Below, piece by piece: positions 20,512-43,326 of a stretch of 64,000 bases of DNA. Below the pieces are notes generated by a model, which did not search any database, was not told where the DNA came from, and saw nothing but the letters and a program-made list of their open reading frames with translations. A program made the translations under genes and the position numbers. The stretch comes from an uncultured Parafilimonas sp. Its GTDB lineage: Bacteria > Bacteroidota > Bacteroidia > Chitinophagales > Chitinophagaceae. Positions within the stretch are counted from its first letter, which is position 1. Each line of letters opens with the position of its first letter. The DNA lies in NCBI GenBank assembly GCA_903882935.1, contig CAIRZB010000001.1, positions 1 through 64,000 on the forward strand, in the 5' to 3' direction.

Positions 20512-20537
20512 AATGGGCCAATTGCCCAATGCCCATT
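20512..20537 (-). terminator. Possible terminator of cassette 1
   Basis: AATGGGC / GCCCATT flank a 12-nt loop right at the regulator stop codon, and the minus strand continues into a short T-rich run. Confidence 0.4.
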
Positions 20538-21177
20538 ATATTTTGGCTATGCCATTGCGGATGGCATACATTACCAACCCAACCCTGGAGAGTGTTTGTA
20601 GTTTTTCAAACATATTGCTCCGCAGGGCTTCCACCGCCCTTGGGGTAATATTCATGGCGTCGGCAATTTCTTTGTACGATTTTTCGGTGCAGCAAAGTTT
20701 TAAAAACTCCGTTTCTTTTTCGCTCAATTCAGGTTCGGCAAACTTTTCGCCCGATACTTGGTTGGCGAGGTGTACCAGCCGGCCGCTTACCAGCTCATTA
20801 AAAAAGAACCCTTTTTCGCTAATATCCCTCAAGGCCGATCTTAATACATCGGGCTTACTGTCTTTAAGTATATAGCCTTTCGCGCCATACTTAAGCATCC
20901 GGATGATTGATTTATCGTCATCCATCATACTCAACACCAGTATCTTAATTTGGGGGGCATGGGTTTTTATCCATTGGGCCGTCTCAAAACCATCCATCTC
21001 AGGCATGGTAATATCCAGTAGCAGTATGTCGGGCTGGGGGCTGGTTTTTAAAAGCTCAATAAAGTGCTTGCCATTATCAGCCTCAAACACCACCTGGTAA
21101 CCTTCTGAATTGTTAATTACTGATGCCAGCCCGTTTCTTAGTAAGGCATGGTCATCCACCAGGGCTACTTTTGTCAT
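20536..21177 (-). CDS. NarL/LuxR-type response regulator (cassette 1)
   Basis: This 213-aa regulator has a receiver domain (VALVDDH, phospho-acceptor Asp55 in LLLDITMPEMDG, Lys in LKDSK) and a C-terminal LuxR helix-turn-helix (ELSEKETEFLKLCCTEKSYKEIADAMNITPRAVEALRSNMFEKL). The start at 21177 gives an ATGA overlap with the kinase stop codon; a second Met two codons earlier is possible. It is the last gene of a small protein, membrane protein, kinase, regulator cassette. Its paralogue is at 40584-41243. Confidence 0.9.
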   Translation of the reverse strand: MTKVALVDDHALLRNGLASVINNSEGYQVVFEADNGKHFIELLKTSPQPDILLLDITMPEMDGFETAQWIKTHAPQIKILVLSMMDDDKSIIRMLKYGAKGYILKDSKPDVLRSALRDISEKGFFFNELVSGRLVHLANQVSGEKFAEPELSEKETEFLKLCCTEKSYKEIADAMNITPRAVEALRSNMFEKLQTLSRVGLVMYAIRNGIAKI

Positions 21178-21971
21178 ACGCATTGGTTAATATGGTTCTT
21201 AATTACAATCTTAATCAACGTTCCTTTTCCGGGGCCTGTATCAATTTTGCAGGTGGCATCCATCAGCTTGCACCGCTGCTGTATACTTTTAAGCCCAATA
21301 CCTGTTTCGGCAGTATTCAATTTGGCAACATCAAAACCTTGGCCGTTATCGTTAATGGTTATGGCTGTGTGCTTGTCATCCGTGGTAATACTGGCGGTTA
21401 TCAGGGTTGCCTTCGCGTGTTTTAAAATATTGTTCAATATTTCCTGCATCATCCTAAAGGCAATAATGGTTTGCTCATTGCCCAGCGGCACTTCTTCGTC
21501 AAGGCAATTAAAAACGGTTTTTATTTTTGCAACCCGTTCAATTATGCCAAGCTCGTGCTTTATGGCCCGGCAAAGGCCAATGTCGGTAATTTTTTCGCTG
21601 TTCAGGCTTCGGCTTAGGTCACGCAGGTCGGCAATTGCTTTGCCCAATAGTTCCTCGGTTAATGCAATGGTACCGCCTACGGCACTGGGCTGTATGGTGT
21701 TTAGGTTTAATTTGGCCAGGCTAAGCACCTGGCCAATATTATCATGAATTTCCTGGCTAATGTTTCTAAAAGTCTGTTCCTGTATCTCCAACTGGCTCTG
21801 TAAAATGGTTTGCTCAAATTGTACTTTAAGGTCAACCACCTCTTTTTGGTGCAAGATTCTACGCCGGTGCAATTGTATCACCAGCAGGTAAAAAAACATG
21901 ACAAAAAACAAAATAACCACAATACCTACAATAAGAAAGGTAAATGTGTAGTTTGTCGTTTCTTGTGGCAT
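21174..21971 (-). CDS. HisKA_3 sensor histidine kinase (cassette 1)
   Basis: This 265-aa kinase has one TM helix (9-33), a short coiled segment, the HisKA_3 dimerisation box with His76 (FRNISQEIHDNIGQVLSLAK), the N-box EILNNILKHAKA and ATP-lid motifs DNGQGFD and GIGLKSI. It has no sensor domain of its own, so signal input probably comes from the neighbouring membrane protein. It overlaps that gene by 46 nt and the regulator gene by 4 nt, implying translational coupling. Confidence 0.9.
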   Translation of the reverse strand: MPQETTNYTFTFLIVGIVVILFFVMFFYLLVIQLHRRRILHQKEVVDLKVQFEQTILQSQLEIQEQTFRNISQEIHDNIGQVLSLAKLNLNTIQPSAVGGTIALTEELLGKAIADLRDLSRSLNSEKITDIGLCRAIKHELGIIERVAKIKTVFNCLDEEVPLGNEQTIIAFRMMQEILNNILKHAKATLITASITTDDKHTAITINDNGQGFDVAKLNTAETGIGLKSIQQRCKLMDATCKIDTGPGKGTLIKIVIKNHINQCV

Positions 21972-22588
21972 AATAATCCTGTTGAAATTAGTGCAAACTT
22001 AACAATAATCCCCCCATCTAACACATACCATAAACTATTGCCTTCATTAATCATATTGGCGTTAATAAAGTATCGGTACGACATTAGTACCAGTACACTA
22101 ACTGCACTGTAAACCAAAAACCCGCTTACATACCAAAAGGAGGGCAGCTTTTGGAAATAAAGGATATCGTCACTTTTAGACAGCGTTACCAAATAATACA
22201 TGCATAGAAACAAGATTATCAGGCTTGATACTACAGCTGAATTGCTGTTGAATTCTGTCCATTTTTCCCAAAACATCCCATTAAATGAGAAAAATACAGT
22301 GTACGACACGGCAATTACAACAAATAAAACTGAAAAGCTTTTTTGGGTTATTTTTTTTAGTATGTAATAACTAATTAACCACAAATCCACCAGGCTGCTA
22401 ATGTGATACAAAAATGAATTATGAATGCCCCTGTCGGCAAGAACGTTTGTTAAGCCGTACAGAATAAAATTTACAACACAGTAAATAAATACTACTCTAT
22501 CAAGAACACCGGCATGTCTCCAAATGGTAATATACAATAACAACGCAAGTAGCGGCATGTAAGTATCACTGTATAACAAAAACATCAT
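21926..22588 (-). CDS. Multi-pass membrane protein (cassette 1), uncharacterised
   Basis: This 220-aa protein has about six or seven hydrophobic helices and no enzymatic motif. The C-terminal part (PSFWYVSGFLVYSAVSV ... NSLWYVLDGGIIVKFALIS) matches the membrane protein at 42148-42840 in pattern (PxxWYxxGxxxY ... NDLW), so the two are paralogues. Its position between a small soluble protein and a sensorless kinase suggests it is the signal-receiving subunit of the system. Confidence 0.8.
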   Translation of the reverse strand: MMFLLYSDTYMPLLALLLYITIWRHAGVLDRVVFIYCVVNFILYGLTNVLADRGIHNSFLYHISSLVDLWLISYYILKKITQKSFSVLFVVIAVSYTVFFSFNGMFWEKWTEFNSNSAVVSSLIILFLCMYYLVTLSKSDDILYFQKLPSFWYVSGFLVYSAVSVLVLMSYRYFINANMINEGNSLWYVLDGGIIVKFALISTGLLCHKKRQTTHLPFLL

Positions 22589-22600
22589 GGTGGGTGAGGA

Positions 22601-23005
22601 CTAAGTGTTAAGAATGTTTGAACCGCTGCAAAATGCAGGGCAGGGCCGTACGTCACCAGTTGAGCCATTGCCGGGTGCCGCTGCACCAAACATGCCCGGT
22701 GCTTGAGTAACCGCAGGCATTTCCTTCGGCACATTAAAGTCGTTGTATACTTCACCGTCTTTTTCAACGGCAACCACATGCACCGTGGGTATAAAGCTAC
22801 CTTCAATCTCTTTACCCCCAAGGTAAATGCGCACACCATCTAAGGTTGTGCCATCATGGCCCCTTAATGCTAGAAGCCTGTCAATTTCTTCCTTTTTTAA
22901 CAAAAAGCAATATGAGGCGGCCGCAGATGCATCTTTTGGCATGCCGGCCACATACTTTCTGTAGGTACTAACTTCTTGCTTTATTACGCTCCAGTTGTCA
23001 GACAT
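22601..23005 (-). CDS. Small uncharacterised protein opening cassette 1
   Basis: This 134-aa protein has no signal peptide or TM segment. The core (ASYCFLLKKEEIDRLLA ... LDGVRIYLGGKE ... PTVHVVAVEKDGE) resembles the cassette 2 protein (GFVFSKELIERFF ... NPTVVLVACNFDE). The tail ends PCPAFC, two cysteines three residues apart. ATG at 23005 is chosen; the 19-residue upstream extension is not conserved in character. It is 12 bp upstream of the membrane protein gene. The family is not one I can name; a ligand or redox sensor feeding the kinase is only an inference. Confidence 0.7.
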   Translation of the reverse strand: MSDNWSVIKQEVSTYRKYVAGMPKDASAAASYCFLLKKEEIDRLLALRGHDGTTLDGVRIYLGGKEIEGSFIPTVHVVAVEKDGEVYNDFNVPKEMPAVTQAPGMFGAAAPGNGSTGDVRPCPAFCSGSNILNT

Positions 23006-23048: not shown

Positions 23049-23057
23049 TACAAAATA
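23049..23057 (-). promoter_or_regulatory. Candidate promoter box of cassette 1
   Basis: On the minus strand TATTTTGTA followed by TCGT lies 44 bp before the first cassette gene. Cassette 2 has the same TATTTTGTA with CTCGT at 40 bp from its first gene. Confidence 0.4.
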
Positions 23058-23080
23058 AGCATTATGCTTTGAAACTGAGG

Positions 23081-23096
23081 ATGTGAAAAATCACAT
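23081..23096. promoter_or_regulatory. Palindrome ATGTGA-N4-TCACAT upstream of cassette 1
   Basis: A perfect 6-4-6 palindrome is placed about 25-40 bp upstream of the candidate -7 box, where an activator would bind. It resembles a CRP/FNR site but has a 4-nt instead of a 6-nt spacer. Confidence 0.4.
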
Positions 23097-23185
23097 TTAT
23101 TTATTGTGTTTCTTCACCGCCACAAGCCTGCGTGGCTGTATTGCCGTTAGGCAAAAAATAGGCAGGGTACTATACCCATTACCTT

Positions 23186-23193
23186 TACTTTTG
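23186..23193 (+). promoter_or_regulatory. -7 promoter element of the aminotransferase gene
   Basis: TACTTTTG matches TAnnTTTG. Transcription would begin near 23200, after the GTG at 23193, which argues that translation starts at the ATG at 23211. Confidence 0.5.
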
Positions 23194-23210
23194 TGCCTAA
23201 ATTACAGGGT

Positions 23211-24467
23211 ATGGAACAACTTAGCAGGATGGCAGGCTCTCTTGTAGGGTCAGAGATTGTGCGGCTTGGCAACGAAATAAATGACCGCATAAGGCAAGGT
23301 GAGCATATTTACAACTACACCATCGGCGATTTTGACCCCAATATTTTTCCCATACCCCAGCAATTGGAGGATTTGATTGTGGACGCTTACCGCAGCCACT
23401 ACACCAATTACCCGCCCGGGGATGGCTTGCTGGAACTGCGCCAGGCAGTAGGCCAATTTTTAAACGAATGGGAGGGGCTGGAATACGCCGCCAATGAAAT
23501 ACTGATTGCCAGCGGTGGCAGGCCGCTGATTTACACAATATTTAAAACCATTGTAGACAAAGGCGATAAAGTTATTTACGCAGCCCCATCTTGGAACAAC
23601 AACCATTATGTGCACTTGCACGAGGGGGTACACTGCGTTATTGAAGCAACCGTGGAAAATAATTTTATGCCCACTGCGGCCGATATTGCGCCGCACATTA
23701 AGGGTGCCACATTAATATGTTTATGCACGCCCCAAAACCCTACCGGAACCACTTTGCAAAAAAGCGAGTTGGAGGCTATATGCCAGTTAGTATTAGCAGA
23801 AAACAGCACACGGGGAGAACATGACAAGAAGCTGTACCTTATGTTTGACCAAATGTATTGGGTGCTTACCTATGGCAACACCCAGCACTACAACCCGGTT
23901 AGCTTAGTGCCAGCCATGCGGCCCTATACAGTTTTTGTTGACGGTATATCCAAATCGCTCGCCTCAACAGGGTTGCGTATAGGGTGGTCGTTTGGACCGG
24001 CCCATATTATTGCAAAAATGAAGGCATTGCTAAGCCACTTGGGTGCCTGGGGGCCAATGGCCGAGCAAAAGGCGACTGCGAAATTTTTGGGTAACAAACC
24101 AGTATTACAGCATTACTTGGTAAATTTTAAGGCTGCTTTGGAAGAGCGGCTCAATAGGATTTACGAAGGCTTTATAGCCTTAAAAGAGAAGGGCTTTGCC
24201 GTTGATGCGGTTGTGCCGCAAGCTGCTATTTACCTAACCATAAAACTTAACCTTACCGGTTTAGGTGCCTACGGTAAGGTGTTGGCCACCCAAGCCGATG
24301 TAACAGCCTATATTTTAAGCCAAGCCAAACTTGCCTTGGTGCCTTTTTATGCGTTTGGCGCACAGGCAAATTCCCCGTGGTACAGGCTTAGTGTTGGCAC
24401 TGTGCGATTGCAAGAAATTGACGGCATGTTTGCCCAATTGGAGGATGCCTTATCAAAACTGCAATAA
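23211..24467 (+). CDS. Pyridoxal-phosphate aminotransferase, class I/II
   Basis: This 418-aa fold type I PLP enzyme shows the family landmarks: SGGRPLIYTIFK (cofactor phosphate region), PQNPTG, an Asp/Tyr pair in FDQMYWVL and the Schiff-base lysine in GISKSLASTGLRIGW (~residue 247), with a C-terminal RLSVG arginine for the substrate carboxylate. Substrate specificity cannot be read. ATG at 23211 is preferred to GTG at 23193 because of the promoter position. It is monocistronic, with a bidirectional terminator 3 bp after the stop. Confidence 0.88.
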   Translation: MEQLSRMAGSLVGSEIVRLGNEINDRIRQGEHIYNYTIGDFDPNIFPIPQQLEDLIVDAYRSHYTNYPPGDGLLELRQAVGQFLNEWEGLEYAANEILIASGGRPLIYTIFKTIVDKGDKVIYAAPSWNNNHYVHLHEGVHCVIEATVENNFMPTAADIAPHIKGATLICLCTPQNPTGTTLQKSELEAICQLVLAENSTRGEHDKKLYLMFDQMYWVLTYGNTQHYNPVSLVPAMRPYTVFVDGISKSLASTGLRIGWSFGPAHIIAKMKALLSHLGAWGPMAEQKATAKFLGNKPVLQHYLVNFKAALEERLNRIYEGFIALKEKGFAVDAVVPQAAIYLTIKLNLTGLGAYGKVLATQADVTAYILSQAKLALVPFYAFGAQANSPWYRLSVGTVRLQEIDGMFAQLEDALSKLQ

Positions 24468-24986: not shown

Positions 24987-26081
24987 ATGTGCCGCTTATA
25001 TTTTGAGCAAAATTTAATATTTAAGCATGTGCTTGTGGCCCCGCTCGATTGGGGCTTGGGACACGCAACACGGTGCATACCTATCATAAAACAACTGCAA
25101 AATGCCGGGTGTAATGTAACTATTGCAGCATCAGGCAAAACACTTGCTTTGCTTTCTGCCGAGTTTCCAACCCTTAATACTGTTGAATTATTTGGCTACA
25201 ATATACGCTACACAGCACAAAAACGCCTTTTGCCACTTAAAATTTTATGGCAAAGCCCCAATATTCTGTTAACAATACAAAAAGAACACCGTTGGCTTAA
25301 AAAACTTATACAAGAAAGGGCTATAGATTTGGTTATTTCAGATAACAGGTTTGGCTTACACACCAAAAATGTACCCTGCATTTTTATAACGCACCAGTTG
25401 CTAATTAAAGTCCCTTATAGATGGTTGGAGCGTTTAATGCAGTTAATAAATTATCATTTTGTTAACAAATTTTCCGCCTGTTGGGTGCCAGATTTTGAGG
25501 GTGGCAACACCATCGCAGCGGCACTTTCGCATCCCAAGCACTTGCCCAAAGTGCCTCTAAAATATATCGGCCCGGTATCCCGGTTTGGCCCGGTGGAAAA
25601 TATGCCGTTTAAATATGATTGGTTGGTGGTACTATCCGGGCCTGAGCCACAAAGAACTATTTTGGAAAATAAAATATTGTTGGTGGCCGAACATTTAGCG
25701 GGTGCCGTATTGCTTGTAAGGGGTAAACCGGGTGATAGCACTAGCATTGATTCACCTGCCAATTGCACCGTGTTAAACCACGTTTCTACCGCTGGTATGC
25801 AGCGCGTATTTGCAGAAAGTAAATTTGTGGTAAGCCGCTGTGGCTATACCACCGTTATGGAGGTGTTGGCGCAGCACAAAAAAGCTATTCTTATACCAAC
25901 CCCTGGACAAACAGAACAGGAATACCTTGCAAAACACCTTTTTGCCCAGCAATGGTGTTACTGCTGCCAGCAGGATGAAGACCTTGCCTATCATTTTGGG
26001 CAGGCAGAAAAGTTTGCATACCAGTGGCCTGTTTTGGGCGAGTCTTTACTTAATGCGGCTATTAGTGGGCTGGTGTTTTAA
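24987..26081 (+). CDS. Glycosyltransferase, MurG-like (GT-B fold)
   Basis: This 364-aa protein opens VLVAPLDWGLGHATRCIPIIKQL, the GT-B N-terminal Rossmann motif with the GxGHxxR signature, and has a C-terminal half with ESKFVVSRCGYTTVMEVLAQHKKAILIPTPGQTEQEYLA, equivalent to the nucleotide-sugar binding region of MurG-type (GT28) enzymes. It probably transfers a sugar from a UDP donor to a lipid or small acceptor, but is not MurG itself, as no cell-wall cluster is near. It ends 8 bp from the convergent phosphatase gene. Confidence 0.8.
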   Translation: MCRLYFEQNLIFKHVLVAPLDWGLGHATRCIPIIKQLQNAGCNVTIAASGKTLALLSAEFPTLNTVELFGYNIRYTAQKRLLPLKILWQSPNILLTIQKEHRWLKKLIQERAIDLVISDNRFGLHTKNVPCIFITHQLLIKVPYRWLERLMQLINYHFVNKFSACWVPDFEGGNTIAAALSHPKHLPKVPLKYIGPVSRFGPVENMPFKYDWLVVLSGPEPQRTILENKILLVAEHLAGAVLLVRGKPGDSTSIDSPANCTVLNHVSTAGMQRVFAESKFVVSRCGYTTVMEVLAQHKKAILIPTPGQTEQEYLAKHLFAQQWCYCCQQDEDLAYHFGQAEKFAYQWPVLGESLLNAAISGLVF

Positions 26082-38921: not shown

Positions 38922-39536
38922 CTAAAATACCAGCTCTGTCAATTTTTTAGGCGGCGGCAGTAATATGCCTTGCAAGCCTGCGGCTATAGCACCTTCCACA
39001 TTTTTATATGAATCGTCAATAAAAACGGTTTCTTCAGCCAATAAGTGCTGCTCCTCCAAGATAGCCTTGAATGCTTCGGGATAAGGTTTTCTTAGGCCGA
39101 GTTTATGGGAGTAATATGCTTTTATAAAGTGGCTGTTAAAGTCATCTTCCCCAGTTTGCTGCTTGAATGTTTGTACAAAAGCATCCTCGTGAATCTGGTT
39201 GGTATTGCTAAACAGGTAAATGTTATACCGCTGCTTAACCGGCAGCAACCATTGCAGCGCATCGGCATAAAAGCTACCCAGCATGGCATTCCATGCGGTT
39301 TGTATTTGTGTGTTTGTTAACGGTATACCTGATGCCTGCCTAAAAAGGTCGTAAAACGCGGTAGGGGTTATCTTGCCGGTTTCCAGCAACTCAAACAAAG
39401 GGTCGGCATGGTGGTGGGTAAACAAGTCGTTAAATTTGGTAACACCCAAGTTTACAAATGCCTGTTCAGTTTTTTGGTAATCCACCTCAAGGAAAACGCC
39501 GCCGAGGTCGAAAATGATGTTTTTCACGTTTTGCAT
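38922..39536 (-). CDS. HAD-superfamily hydrolase (subfamily IA)
   Basis: This 204-aa protein has motif I FDLGGVF, motif II LFSNTNQIH, motif III Lys (HKLGLRKPYPEAF) and motif IV VFIDDSYKNVEGA. The DLGGV form, where the second Asp is replaced by Gly, is typical of the glucose-1-phosphatase/YihX-like branch. The ATG at 39536 gives MQNVKNIIFDLGGV; an upstream Met adds ten residues. Confidence 0.88.
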   Translation of the reverse strand: MQNVKNIIFDLGGVFLEVDYQKTEQAFVNLGVTKFNDLFTHHHADPLFELLETGKITPTAFYDLFRQASGIPLTNTQIQTAWNAMLGSFYADALQWLLPVKQRYNIYLFSNTNQIHEDAFVQTFKQQTGEDDFNSHFIKAYYSHKLGLRKPYPEAFKAILEEQHLLAEETVFIDDSYKNVEGAIAAGLQGILLPPPKKLTELVF

Positions 39537-39701
39537 ACCGCAAAAATAAATAAGCGGCTGGAACAATGCGGTTATGCCTAAGTTTTTTTACGGTTAAGTT
39601 GATTTGAATGAATTAACAATTCGCCACCAAAGCGGGCAATTGCATTTTACTTGCCCGTTTTGCGGGGTAACAACTGGCAGCGGTATAAAATTTTGGGTTA
39701 G

Positions 39702-39761: not shown

Positions 39762-40394
39762 ATGATACGGATAGCACTAATAGAAGACAACGAATCTTAC
39801 CGCAAGTCTTTGCAAAGTTTATTTAGCAAAGAAAGCGACATGGAAGTAGTTTTTACTGACATGTACTGCGAAAACCTACTGCTTACCGTTGACATTATTG
39901 AACCCGACGTGGTTATTATGGATATTAACCTGGCTGGTTTGAGCGGCATACAAGGGGTGCAAAAACTAAGGGAAAAGCAGCCCAACCTGAATATTTTTAT
40001 GCTTACCGTGTTTGAGGATATGGAAAGGATATTCGATTCCATAAAGGCAGGGGCGGTGGGGTATTTGCTTAAAAAAGACCCACCCCAGCAAATAATTGAG
40101 GCTGTAAGGAAGGTTTTTAATGGCGAAAGCGTTATGAACGGTAAAATAGCCCGGCAAGTATTGGATTTTTTTAACCGGCAGTTGAAAAAAACGGTGGCCG
40201 CTTACGTAAATGACTATAACCTGAGCAGCCGCGAAAATGAAGTATTGCATTTGTTGATGGACGGGTTGAGTTACAAACAAATTGCCTCAAACTGCAATGT
40301 AACCTTAGACACAATTTCAACGCACATTCGCAATATTTACAGTAAACTAAACATTCACAGCCGTGCTGAGTTGGCGGCAAAGTTTAGGGTGTAA
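39762..40394 (+). CDS. Orphan NarL/LuxR-type response regulator
   Basis: This 210-aa regulator has a receiver domain (IALIEDN, Asp54 in VIMDINLAGL, Lys in LLKKDP) and a LuxR DNA-binding domain (LSSRENEVLHLLMDGLSYKQIASNCNVTLDTISTHIRNIYSKL). No kinase lies beside it on the plus strand; the convergent neighbour is cassette 2. It is less similar to the cassette regulators than those are to each other. Confidence 0.9.
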   Translation: MIRIALIEDNESYRKSLQSLFSKESDMEVVFTDMYCENLLLTVDIIEPDVVIMDINLAGLSGIQGVQKLREKQPNLNIFMLTVFEDMERIFDSIKAGAVGYLLKKDPPQQIIEAVRKVFNGESVMNGKIARQVLDFFNRQLKKTVAAYVNDYNLSSRENEVLHLLMDGLSYKQIASNCNVTLDTISTHIRNIYSKLNIHSRAELAAKFRV

Positions 40395-40583: not shown

Positions 40584-41243
40584 TTATTGCGGGGTTACAA
40601 TACCGCTTTTTATGGCATAGATCACCAAGCCAACCCTGCTGCGTACGTTTAGTTTCTCAAAAAGCGCATCACGGTAACCGTCTATAGTGCGGGGGCTCAA
40701 AAACATTTTATCGGCTATTTCTTTGTAGGTAAGCTCAGTGCAAATAAGCTTCAAAAATTCAATGTCCTTATCCTTAAAGCTTTGCGGGTCTGTTTCGTCG
40801 CTGGCACCATCGTTGCGCATCCTAACCATTTTTACCAATTGGTTGGTAACAAGCTCGCTGTGGTAATACCCTTTTTGCACAATTTCGTTTAGTGCCCGCC
40901 GCAGGTCGCCCGGTTCGGCATCCTTTAAAATATACCCGCAGGCACCGTTTTTTATCATCCTAATAATGGCCCCTTCGTTATCGTACATGCTCAGTGCCAA
41001 CACTTTAATGCCGGGGTAGGCATCCCTAACCCATTTAGTTGTTTCATATCCGTCTTGTTTAGGCATGTTTATGTCCATCAGCACAATATCAGGCAAGGCG
41101 TTGGGTTTAACGGCGTTCATAAAATCTACTCCGTTCGATGCCTGAAAAATAACTTTAAACCCATCAAAGGTGTCAATCAGGTTTGCCAACCCATTGCGAA
41201 TAAGCGAGTGGTCGTCAACCAATGCTACCAAAGTTGTTTTCAT
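40584..41243 (-). CDS. NarL/LuxR-type response regulator (cassette 2)
   Basis: This 219-aa regulator has a receiver with Asp57 in VLMDINMPKQDG and a LuxR HTH (IEFLKLICTELTYKEIADKMFLSPRTIDGYRDALFEKL). It is clearly paralogous to the cassette 1 regulator (both VALVDDHxLxRNGLA, ALSMYDNEGAIIRMIKNGACGYILKDAEP against VLSMMDDDKSIIRMLKYGAKGYILKDSKP). Here a 119-bp gap separates it from the kinase gene, so it may have its own promoter. Confidence 0.9.
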   Translation of the reverse strand: MKTTLVALVDDHSLIRNGLANLIDTFDGFKVIFQASNGVDFMNAVKPNALPDIVLMDINMPKQDGYETTKWVRDAYPGIKVLALSMYDNEGAIIRMIKNGACGYILKDAEPGDLRRALNEIVQKGYYHSELVTNQLVKMVRMRNDGASDETDPQSFKDKDIEFLKLICTELTYKEIADKMFLSPRTIDGYRDALFEKLNVRSRVGLVIYAIKSGIVTPQ

Positions 41244-41362
41244 TGTATCCCCCGTACCCCAAAAGGGCGTTTAAAATCCAGTTATGATATTTTTTACAGC
41301 AATATTATAGTTTCTGCATAGTGCATACTACCGCATATACCGTAGCATTTAACACCACCACG

Positions 41363-42151
41363 CTAAACTATGCCATCCTCGTGTGGCAGTTCAATAATAG
41401 CTTTTGTGCCCATACCAGGCGCACTGTTAACCGTGATGTATCCTTTAATAAGGCTCATCCGGCTAAGCATATTTTGCAGGCCAAGCCCTTTACCAGTATT
41501 GCTTTCCTTATTTGTGTCAAAGCCTTTTCCGTTGTCGCTAACCGTTATTGTCAGCTTGTCGGGTTGGTAAAGCATGTTTATCTCTACGGCCGTAGCATCT
41601 GCATGCTTTACAATATTGTTCAGCAATTCCTGCACAATCCTAAAAACCACTAATTCTTCCTGGGTTTGGTTTTTATATTCATTGCCCATAACGGTAAGCG
41701 ATGCCTGGTACAAGCCTGTTTTTTGTAAAAAATGCACCTGCTGGCCAATGGCCCCCGGCAGGCCAAGCTCCCTTATAAAATCGGGGCTAAGGCTTTTGGC
41801 TAAGTCGCGCAGGTCCTGTATGGTTTGGCTTAACTGGTTTTTGCTTTCCAACAGCTTTTCCTTTGCCGCTTCGGGGTTGTACACATCCACCGTGTTAATG
41901 GTGAGTTTTACAAAACTCAGGGCCTGCCCTATGTTATCATGAATCTCTTGGCTGATGGCCTTAAAGGTTTCTTCCTGGATTTCGAGGCGGGTGGTGAGGA
42001 GTGCTTGGGTGAAAGCGTTTTCCAAATTTTCACGTTCAATCAAATGTTCTTTTTTTCTTTTTTGATAAATCATTAAAAAGGCAACTGTAAAACTTGCCAG
42101 CAACATAAATATAATGGTCGCGGAAGCAACCGCTAATATTACTTCGTTCAT
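41363..42151 (-). CDS. HisKA_3 sensor histidine kinase (cassette 2)
   Basis: This 262-aa kinase has one TM (about 5-28), His71 in FKAISQEIHDNIGQALSFVK, N-box ELLNNIVKHADA and DNGKGFD / GLGLQNM lid motifs. It has no sensor domain. It overlaps the membrane protein gene by 4 nt (ATGA). Paralogue of the kinase at 21174. Confidence 0.9.
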   Translation of the reverse strand: MNEVILAVASATIIFMLLASFTVAFLMIYQKRKKEHLIERENLENAFTQALLTTRLEIQEETFKAISQEIHDNIGQALSFVKLTINTVDVYNPEAAKEKLLESKNQLSQTIQDLRDLAKSLSPDFIRELGLPGAIGQQVHFLQKTGLYQASLTVMGNEYKNQTQEELVVFRIVQELLNNIVKHADATAVEINMLYQPDKLTITVSDNGKGFDTNKESNTGKGLGLQNMLSRMSLIKGYITVNSAPGMGTKAIIELPHEDGIV

Positions 42152-42840
42152 AATGTTGATTTTAAGAAAGCCTTATTTACCGAGAAATTCTTACTCTGAT
42201 AAATGTCTTTTAAAAAACCAACGGTAAACAGCACATACATATTAATGTTAAACAAATTATTAATAATCCAAAGGTCGTTTAACTTTGAATCAGGGTGCCT
42301 TTTGATGTACTGCCATAAGGAAAACATCAAAGTGGTACATGGAGCATAAAAAAACATTCCGACAAGATACCATACAAATGGGGAGGATAGAGTAAGCTTA
42401 ATTTCATTCTTAACTTGATATTGTTCAATTATGACCAGTAAAATCCAAGCTGTATAAATAATATTATTCAAACAGACCCACTCATTAATAAATCTCCTTC
42501 TTATATCAAAAACTATAACAATTGATATTGAGCTAACAATGTAAGCGACAAAGGATGCTAAAAATATCCTATATTTCACCCTATTCTGATGTTTTTTCCT
42601 AAAAAGAAAAAACATCAGAATAAATTCGAAAGGGGTGTAGATATTATACGAAATGTATTGGAGCGTTGATTTCTCATCAAAGTATCTAAGTAGCTGGGGA
42701 ATGGTTCCCAAAAAGACTATTCCCAGTATTAATAACGAATCCACTGACAACTTTTTAATAAAAAAAACTCCGACCATCAGCGGCAAAACAATGCACCAAA
42801 TCGAAGCGAAACTTATAATTTGCTGGATTACCATGCCCAT
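42148..42840 (-). CDS. Multi-pass membrane protein (cassette 2), uncharacterised
   Basis: This 230-aa protein has about six or seven hydrophobic helices and no known motif except the pattern shared with the cassette 1 protein (PFVWYLVGMFFYAPCTTL ... LNDLWIINNLFNI). The DNA reads noticeably AT-richer than the kinase and regulator genes. It overlaps the kinase gene by 4 nt and follows the small protein gene by 6 bp. Met3 (42834) is an alternative start. Confidence 0.8.
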   Translation of the reverse strand: MGMVIQQIISFASIWCIVLPLMVGVFFIKKLSVDSLLILGIVFLGTIPQLLRYFDEKSTLQYISYNIYTPFEFILMFFLFRKKHQNRVKYRIFLASFVAYIVSSISIVIVFDIRRRFINEWVCLNNIIYTAWILLVIIEQYQVKNEIKLTLSSPFVWYLVGMFFYAPCTTLMFSLWQYIKRHPDSKLNDLWIINNLFNINMYVLFTVGFLKDIYQSKNFSVNKAFLKSTL

Positions 42841-42846
42841 CTGTTG

Positions 42847-43326
42847 TTACAAAACGCTGAATGACTGGATAGTAGTCTTATTTGTAGAAGGAAAACCATC
42901 TTGTATTTCAATTGGTGCAATTATTGTTGGTGGATGCTCGGATGCAGGGAATTCAATGTCAAGTGGGATAAATTTTTTCGCCACCTCGTCAAAATTACAT
43001 GCAACCAAAACGACAGTCGGATTACCCTCTTTGAATGACATATCGTCCGCAGGCTGGGCACCCATTAGCACAATCAGGTAATCAGCTTTTGCGCCTGGAT
43101 TGATGGTGTCATTTGGATCGCCGGTAAAAAAACGCTCAATTAATTCTTTGCTAAATACAAACCCATTATATGGCGAACCATAATATCGCAAAGTGTCAGA
43201 AGTTGCTGTTTGTGAAGTCGACATCGACATAAAGGACATTTTAAAGTCCTCTTTAATCGTTTTGTATTTTTCAATAATTGGTTTCGCTTGGCTTAGCGTA
43301 ATTTTTTTGCCGAATTCCTCATTCAT
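42847..43326 (-). CDS. Small uncharacterised protein opening cassette 2
   Basis: This 159-aa soluble protein starts MNEEFGKKITLSQAKPIIEKYK, contains the core GFVFSKELIERFF ... ADYLIVLMGAQ ... NPTVVLVACNFDE seen in the cassette 1 protein, and ends in a proline-rich tail. It lacks the CPxxC tail of its relative. I do not recognise a named family. Confidence 0.72.
   Translation of the reverse strand: MNEEFGKKITLSQAKPIIEKYKTIKEDFKMSFMSMSTSQTATSDTLRYYGSPYNGFVFSKELIERFFTGDPNDTINPGAKADYLIVLMGAQPADDMSFKEGNPTVVLVACNFDEVAKKFIPLDIEFPASEHPPTIIAPIEIQDGFPSTNKTTIQSFSVL

Follow-up and report, generated by a model that had tools for sequence, protein, structure and literature searches.

A conserved four-gene cassette associates a predicted seven-helix membrane protein with sensorless histidine kinases in Bacteroidota

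The window analyzed here, a stretch of 64,000 nucleotides from an uncultured Parafilimonas sp. (GenBank assembly GCA_903882935.1, contig CAIRZB010000001.1, positions 1 to 64,000), contains at 20536-23005 a minus-strand cassette of four genes encoding a small soluble protein (S), a membrane protein with seven transmembrane (TM) segments (M), a HisKA_3 histidine kinase lacking a sensor domain (K) and a NarL-type response regulator (R). Here we report that these genes are linked to one another across Bacteroidota, that short-frame kinases are found beside M whereas long-frame ones are not, and that paired 12-bp dyads precede the cassette at a recurrent distance from the predicted promoter. These observations lead us to favor, with some reserve, a model in which the cassette is a self-contained signaling unit: S and M would form a split receptor controlling K, and R would activate its own operon.

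Linkage of the four genes across Bacteroidota

A search based on M of this cassette (M1, accompanied by S1, K1 and R1) gave matches in 69 of the 147 genomes of the window's family (Chitinophagaceae), at 91 places, 89 of which were read (a 37-residue piece and one place with four stops were left out). A kinase gene lies directly downstream of M at 84 of these 89 places and a regulator gene follows the kinase at 76; where K was present and at least 1600 nt were available beyond M, R was found in 58 of 64. Upstream of M, a hidden Markov model (HMM) recognized S at 58 of the 89 places. Starting from S, 33 of the 147 genomes matched, at 41 places, and downstream of these we found M in 39, K in 38 and R in 14, many loci ending before the R position; of the two S places without M, one lies at a contig end and one is a true exception. 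A first-pass annotation of the window had held that the cassette would be coincidental if homologues of S and M usually occurred without kinase and regulator neighbors; the counts in both directions point the other way and argue that the cassette is not a product of chance.

The linkage extends beyond the family. A broad M profile was positive in 34 of 40 family genomes (114 M places), and of 296 Bacteroidota genomes 65 contain M; these represent several families and, going by kinship labels, some lie outside the class. Often a genome holds more than one copy of the cassette. The profile search for co-occurrence with kinase-regulator pairs across Bacteroidota, which the same annotation had proposed, upheld the association: at the 29 loci of the phylum sample that were read besides those of the window's own genome (8 from the window's family), every M has a histidine kinase gene after it, and S was recognized by HMM before M in 22. 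In addition, the start of K overlaps the end of M in 67 of the 84 family pairs (starts being those of the longest open reading frame, ORF), suggesting coupled translation.

Two groups of family loci weigh against this picture of a uniform unit. At 5 of the 89 M places no kinase is adjacent: one is the first gene of a tandem M-M-K, two are extra M genes in S-M-K-R-M arrangements, one is devoid of K and one was not recognized as M. Furthermore, 31 of the 89 cassettes have no HMM-recognized S; among those with a kinase, hhalign recovered S in 10 of 27 (P <0.001), compared to 0 of 52 shuffles. Variant arrangements comprise tandem M genes (L011/L073 and L038), a second, divergent M after R (L082, L095, L110 and L117) and, judged by eye, an S holding two copies of the S domain (L181).

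If M were the missing sensor, sensorless kinases should be found beside M, and this converse was tested as well. The window's genome holds 10 HisKA_3 frames, of which those of 269, 269, 274 and 328 amino acids (aa) each adjoin one of its four M genes, and none of the six long frames (657-1108 aa) lies beside M. In the 40-genome search, in which open frames not exceeding 350 aa were counted as sensorless, 6 of 7 such frames were near M compared to 0 of 143 longer ones, among the best 150 kinase matches listed. Two-way linkage and the pairing of short kinases with M thus support the earlier suggestion that S and M constitute the sensory part, which we infer to be their role. The S-M pair is also found with other partners, namely a LytS-type kinase and a LytTR regulator in L179, PAS-HisKA_3 kinases in L176, L181 and L183, and a PAS kinase in L168.

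Across 61 complete cassettes, distance matrices correlate at 0.78 for S-M, 0.92 for K-R and 0.75 for S-K. All raw values are inflated by shared descent, which weakens them as support for a functional unit; the partial correlations amount to 0.49 (S-M), 0.81 (K-R), 0.23 (S-K), 0.15 (M-K), 0.10 (M-R) and 0.01 (S-R). Operon hitchhiking, by which S and M would merely be co-inherited and have nothing to do with K function, would by itself also yield correlated trees, but we consider it very improbable, since the linkage persists across families, paralogous cassettes and swapped kinases, and since short-frame kinases are linked to M and long-frame ones are not.

In the window, the four genes lie where the first-pass annotation had placed them, and its spacings were correct (Table 1): S1 and M1 are separated by 12 bp, M1 and K1 overlap by 46 nt, and K1 and R1 overlap by the claimed 4 nt with an R1 start at 21177, or by 10 nt with one at 21183. 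M1, previously described as having six or seven TM segments, has seven hydrophobic segments and a seven-helix model. K1 consists of one TM segment followed by HisKA_3 (31.2 bits) and HATPase_c (47.4 bits), both above the Pfam cut-off, with His77 situated within QEIHDN; no sensor domain was found in it, in agreement with the earlier description, and among NCBIfam models it matches that of LiaS distantly. R1 combines Response_reg and GerE, the latter a LuxR-type helix-turn-helix (HTH) domain, with Asp57 in the receiver and a recognition helix containing PRAVEALRSN. K1 and R1 therefore display the features of a HisKA_3/NarL two-component pair, namely acceptor His, receiver Asp and LuxR-type HTH. 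S1 and M1 had no match in Pfam or NCBIfam, and 55 S and 75 M sequences compared with Pfam (E up to 0.1) gave scattered single-member matches only; those to HlyIII (0.0017) and Acyl_transf_3 (0.0005), each by one of the 75 M, were dismissed as chance.

Table 1. Positions of the cassette genes, predicted regulatory elements and associated features (window coordinates unless a genome, contig or locus is named)
Feature	Position	Strand	Basis or remark
S1, 134 aa soluble protein	22601..23005	-	translation, predicted model; Pfam/NCBIfam: 0 matches
M1, 220 aa, 7 TM, predicted GPCR/rhodopsin-like bundle	21926..22588	-	Pfam/NCBIfam: 0 matches
K1, 265 aa sensorless HisKA_3 histidine kinase, one N-terminal TM, His77	21174..21971	-	Pfam domains
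R1, 213-215 aa NarL/LuxR-type response regulator, Asp57; start 21177 or 21183	20536..21183	-	Pfam domains
Predicted -7 promoter element TTATTTTG	23051..23058	-	TTTG 28 nt after operator
Predicted R1 operator, exact GTGAAAAATCAC dyad	23083..23094	.	
Second, degenerate operator, GTGAAGAAACAC on S1 strand	23106..23117	.	23 bp upstream of first
Class I/II aminotransferase, divergent from S1; conserved neighbor in M1 clade	23193..24467	+	neighborhood comparison
S2, 159 aa, S family by profile, CPxxC absent	42847..43326	-	
M2, 7 TM	42148..42840	-	
K2, sensorless HisKA_3 kinase	41363..42151	-	
R2, NarL-type regulator	40584..41243	-	
R1-type dyad arrays before aldose-1-epimerase and galactokinase genes	G000:C64 (L221:1729-2167), G013:C76 (L254:2988-3257)		

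The paralogous set reported in the same order at 40584-43326 is likewise present, with a 6-bp gap between S2 and M2, a 4-nt overlap between M2 and K2 and a 119-bp gap before R2. Homology is clear for K1/K2 and R1/R2 (alignment z 52 and 98); pairwise similarity is weak for M1/M2 (z 5.4) and at noise level for S1/S2 (z 2.4). The M profile matches M2 at 1.3e-38, though its alignment includes M2, and the S profile built without S2 matches S2 at P 1.7e-6, compared to at least 0.04 for 5 shuffles. Two further cassettes of the same genome lie on contigs C85 and C108; a scan of genome contigs with the single M1 sequence gave no match, and the later scan used an alignment. A weak M match on C28 (E 0.015) was dropped, as no kinase is adjacent. 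Near copy 2, a further NarL-type response regulator is encoded at 39762-40394 (+), convergent with R2 and with no adjacent kinase gene seen, and in two related genomes the second cassettes have beside them a gene (L133:2215-2835, L136:2329-2943) that by eye looks like the HAD-type hydrolase gene at window 38922-39566.

Predicted architecture of M and S

The M frames listed are mostly 200-300 aa long (224 aa for M1) and carry no fused output domain. Over the 75 M sequences, net charges are +2.5 for loop 1, +2.7 for loop 3 and +2.4 for the C-terminus, and at most +0.5 for the N-terminus and loops 2, 4 and 6, values that fit a predicted orientation with the N-terminus outside and the C-terminus inside. 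Conserved polar residues are N57, Y61, H/N62, position 68 (mostly E), N103, E/Q108, N114 and S115; judging from the model helices and this topology, they would occupy the outer half of TM3-5.

The M1 model (13 sequences) has a predicted local distance difference test score (pLDDT) of 89.1 and a predicted template modeling score (pTM) of 0.85. Foldseek listed mostly G-protein-coupled receptors (GPCRs) and rhodopsins, with probabilities up to 1.00 and TM-scores up to 0.56, along with two zinc transporters among 50 rows. VIA-align, applied to the Foldseek chains, ranked a designed GPCR-like fold at Z 14.7 (root-mean-square deviation, rmsd, 3.4; 199 aligned), mGlu2 at Z 14.2 (rmsd 3.8, 205 aligned), LYCHOS at Z 13.9 (4.5, 217) and bacteriorhodopsin at Z 12.1 (rmsd 3.9, 194 aligned), rank 50 having Z 11.7; its rows consist of GPCRs, rhodopsins and designed GPCR-like folds. 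The M profile revealed no relation to solved GPCRs or rhodopsins among PDB sequences, where only LptF-type permease chains appeared, at E 1.5. Lysine in the position of the retinal-binding TM7 residue was considered: K197 is found in 16 of 75 M rows and the other columns with more than 10 lysines are 208-210, at the C-terminal end, so that by its sequence M lacks the retinal lysine.

Three points count against this structural interpretation. Loop 5, expected inside, is not positive (net -0.32 over the 75 M); no Foldseek match with the M1 model reached E 0.001; and the likeness to GPCRs and rhodopsins, observed with the M1 model alone, may reflect a common helical arrangement. Moreover, many helical proteins with 7-8 TM segments are transporters, and M could be a transporter or enzyme whose state is read by K, with S as a cytosolic accessory. 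Such a role would suit the lack of an N-terminal hydrophobic segment in most S proteins (see below) and the occurrence of predicted operators before metabolic genes such as galM-galK; we nonetheless hold it to be improbable, as M matches no transporter or enzyme family consistently and is so seldom found without an adjacent K (5 of 89 places).

The core of the S family consists of a helix, the motif GIRIYxG and further strands. S1 has a helical N-terminus, a three-strand core with DGVRIYLG and a disordered C-terminal tail with PCPxxC; its model places helices and three strands at residues 5-92 (mean pLDDT 66.4; residues 96-134 <50). Since this model is weak, no fold is claimed for S1, and fold assignment was dropped (Foldseek best E 0.39, VIA-align best Z 2.1). 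Among 84 distinct S proteins, the CPxxC tail is found in 56 and is thus not universal, and several slot-one proteins unmatched by any profile end in GCPxPPC-like tails. An N-terminal hydrophobic segment is absent from 72 and present in 12, of which 3 have a lipobox by a simple pattern. The S domain thus seems to reside on both sides of the membrane, or to be exported in an unrecognized way, which, like the uneven tail, counts against the favored model.

These features raise the alternative that S itself is the signal, a secreted or released protein or peptide, perhaps processed near the CP tail, that M would detect as in peptide quorum sensing. S is the first gene of the operon and evolves fast (mean tree distance over the 61 cassettes 3.46, like M with 3.43; K 2.82, R 2.15), the tail and the CP-rich ends of several slot-one proteins recur as described, and the 12 hydrophobic segments would be compatible with export. 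Against it stand the majority of S proteins without such a segment and the conserved, structured core, unlike a pheromone precursor; in cassette 1 the genes are packed too closely to accommodate another one for export or processing (flanks were compared in 10 named loci, the window and L072). We therefore regard S as signal as an improbable alternative to S as a receptor partner.

Predicted operators and candidate regulon

Cassette 1 is flanked by a convergent dnaX-like gene on one side and by the divergent aminotransferase gene on the other. Among nine M1-clade loci, the region between S and the aminotransferase gene contains an exact GTGAAAAATCAC dyad (either strand) in eight and GTGTTTTTTCAC in the ninth. 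The same GTGAAAAATCAC is found at the cassettes L133 and L136, which have no aminotransferase gene in the 7 kb fetched, indicating that the dyad goes with the cassette. Where dyads are repeated in cassette promoters, they are 22-23 bp apart and occur up to four times. In 14 promoters, the distance from the end of the proximal dyad to the TTTG of the TTATTTTG element is 28 nt in seven and 26 in one. The Bacteroidota -7 region is given in PMC9723704 as TAnnTTTG or TAnnTTGY at -12 to -5, and the TTATTTTG element agrees with this consensus; a dyad near -43 would accordingly be in the position of an activator site.

Dyad sequence tends to follow the recognition helix of the regulator: GTGA dyads accompany LRSN-like helices in 6 of 8 promoters, CGTA accompanies VEGIR in 6 of 6, TAGT accompanies AIKDR in 5 of 11 and CCGT accompanies YR[DEQN] in 7 of 35, compared to shuffle maxima for the commonest dyad of 3, 2, 2 and 4, respectively. 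Cassettes with mixed helices have GTGA in 4 of 14, and no CGTA dyad is seen in the VEGIR cassette of G030, which is situated where a contig begins and whose readable promoter may be missing. As the regulators share descent, the match between dyad and helix is suggestive, not proof, of each R acting on its own cassette; combined with the activator-like spacing, it makes it probable that R1 activates its own operon.

The searches also covered dyads with A/T spacers, in which palindromes upstream of all cassettes were swamped by A/T runs until G/C was required in the arms. Of 87 promoters, 34 have such dyads at gap 4 (14.4 in shuffles), 27 at gap 6 (6.3), 11 at gap 8 (3.0) and 16 at gap 5 (8.0); the excess is thus spread over more than one spacing.

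Several results speak against a uniform scheme of autoactivation. Spacing deviates in L039 (34 nt) and in L133 and L136, where TTTG appears only after the distal dyad, and L035, L037 and L040 (the last from Filimonas zeae, a cultivable relative) have no TTTG in the range searched after any dyad. As few as 7 of 35 promoters with YR helices carry their commonest dyad, 11 promoters with GHR helices have no dyad above shuffles, and 3 of 10 CGTA promoters pair with other helices. Finally, the copy 2, C85 and C108 cassettes have promoters without A/T-spacer dyads of gap 4 or 5. By eye, ACGTA-AATTC-TACGT can be made out in the copy 2 promoter upstream of 43326; it may be an R2 operator belonging to a different class.

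Exact sites number 69 in 7 clade genomes, cassette sites included, compared to 9 in 7 other genomes (2 each for the reversed pattern). For the non-cassette sites of the clade genomes, 40 regions were fetched, without three sites of G055 and one of G063. The window's genome has four exact sites, one at the cassette, two before galM-galK and one on C27. Upstream of galM-galK, five GTGN6CAC form an array with two pairs 22 bp apart, and in the sister genome G013 these genes are likewise preceded by a similar array, galactokinase being identified by family match in G013 and by resemblance (by eye) in the own genome; these arrays likely belong to the R1 regulon. The C27 site, near a cytochrome-like lipoprotein gene, was set aside, as it may be chance (4 genome matches compared to 2 for the reversed pattern).

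The wider set tempers the idea of a regulon. Among the 42 loci with exact sites elsewhere, a TTTG-type element is found at 24-28 nt in only 6, long ORFs enclose 5 of the sites, and no more than two targets recur, galM-galK and a 94-aa ORF, each in two species of one genus. The latter is preceded by three tandem GTGAAAAATCAC (L257:2740-2795, L264:2749-2804) and accompanied by tsaE and an alanine-dehydrogenase-like gene that falls below the family cut-off. Tandem sites also precede hsdM (L273), a reverse transcriptase-associated VirE-primase gene (L271) and an HTH_17 gene (L256), and a single site precedes an OLD-type nuclease gene (L263); these targets are perhaps accessory or defence genes, or chance occurrences, and a defence regulon based on the hsdM, VirE-primase and OLD-type sites was rejected as too few and too mixed.

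As to the neighboring genes, 8 of 10 named loci have the aminotransferase gene divergent from the cassette, and in 5 of these the glycosyltransferase-like gene that comes next (window 24987-26081) is kept as well. This neighborhood may represent ancestral synteny or a shared regulated promoter, and the aminotransferase is possibly a co-target outside the receptor.

Proposed mechanism and comparison with known systems

Starting from the observed gene order, linkage and domains, we infer a complex of S, M and K that binds a signal. M, with its N-terminus out and C-terminus in, would be the receptor and S its small partner or a ligand-presenting subunit; M would hold the single-TM, sensorless K, the product of the overlapping reading frame. 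A signal perceived at the outer half of TM3-5 or at S would cause M to switch K autophosphorylation, and K would hand the phosphate to R. With the dyads spaced as observed, R could bind the paired 12-bp sites just upstream of the -7 box and activate the cassette together with a small, clade-specific regulon.

A broader and more tentative proposal is that stand-alone receptors with a GPCR-like seven-helix fold form a large class in Bacteroidota, present in multiple copies, and that together with their dedicated small partners they serve as interchangeable sensors for sensorless kinases; each cassette would activate itself via its own operator, and recognition helices would have diversified along with their operators, insulating paralogues from one another. 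If true, this would explain the role of the sensorless HisKA_3 kinases in these genomes (4 of the 10 HisKA_3 kinases of the window's genome are in cassettes), and S and M, two families without a Pfam entry, would gain a testable role. Operator classes would lead directly to regulons and signals. A bundle that is unfused to its neighboring kinase and is predicted to be GPCR-like would be a simple bacterial system for studying how such a bundle drives output.

Among known systems, the cassette can be compared to LiaFSR, in which LiaS and LiaR are of the HisKA_3/NarL type. As in LiaFSR, an accessory membrane protein, a histidine kinase and a response regulator are encoded in one operon, and LiaF is described as a negative regulator of LiaRS (PMC3543457). 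By analogy with this general layout, M, with S, could be an inhibitor or stress gauge that keeps K inactive as long as the envelope is undisturbed, without responding to a particular ligand. However, M has seven TM segments and is accompanied by S, and no LiaF-type family was matched: the 75 M gave 25 Pfam families of one member each, none LiaF-type, and M1 and M2 gave no match in NCBIfam. The polar residues in the outer half of TM3-5 are also more pocket-like, and we regard a LiaF-like gauge as unlikely compared to a receptor formed by S and M.

BtsS has seven TM segments and a periplasmic N-terminus, and its pyruvate residues are located in TM III-V on the periplasmic side, according to PMC10653868. 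The conserved polar residues of M in the outer half of TM3-5 recall this arrangement, and the S-M pair meets a LytS-type kinase in L179. Unlike BtsS and LytS, M is separate from the kinase and shares no Pfam family with them (no LytS-type TM sensor domain was found by Pfam among the 75 M), and S has no counterpart there. 7TMR-DISM proteins likewise possess a 7-TM receptor domain, and a long frame on C61 of the window's genome combines 7TMR-DISM with HisKA_3. However, above-cut-off matches to this domain lie in long frames (412-808 aa) and M is unfused; hhalign against 19 7TMR-DISM members gave probabilities of 3.0 percent (broad M) and 0.8 percent (M1 clade), and no such Pfam match occurred in the 75 M.

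The M1 model resembles GPCRs and microbial rhodopsins in its predicted seven-helix arrangement, which may be a common one among helical bundles, but M shows neither a sequence relation nor the retinal lysine, and its output would be a histidine kinase. In sensory rhodopsin-transducer pairs, the 7-TM receptor and the membrane signaling protein that it drives are likewise distinct proteins; M differs by the lack of the retinal lysine and by partnering a kinase directly, and S has no counterpart in these pairs.

The first-pass annotation knew of no described system with this make-up, and no description was found in the literature searched. Taken together, the cassette resembles LiaFSR and BtsS in outline, and the features examined place it in neither group. 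It looks like a widespread, seemingly undescribed bacterial sensing system of a known kind, two-component signaling with an accessory membrane receptor, in which the variant itself and the S and M families are new.

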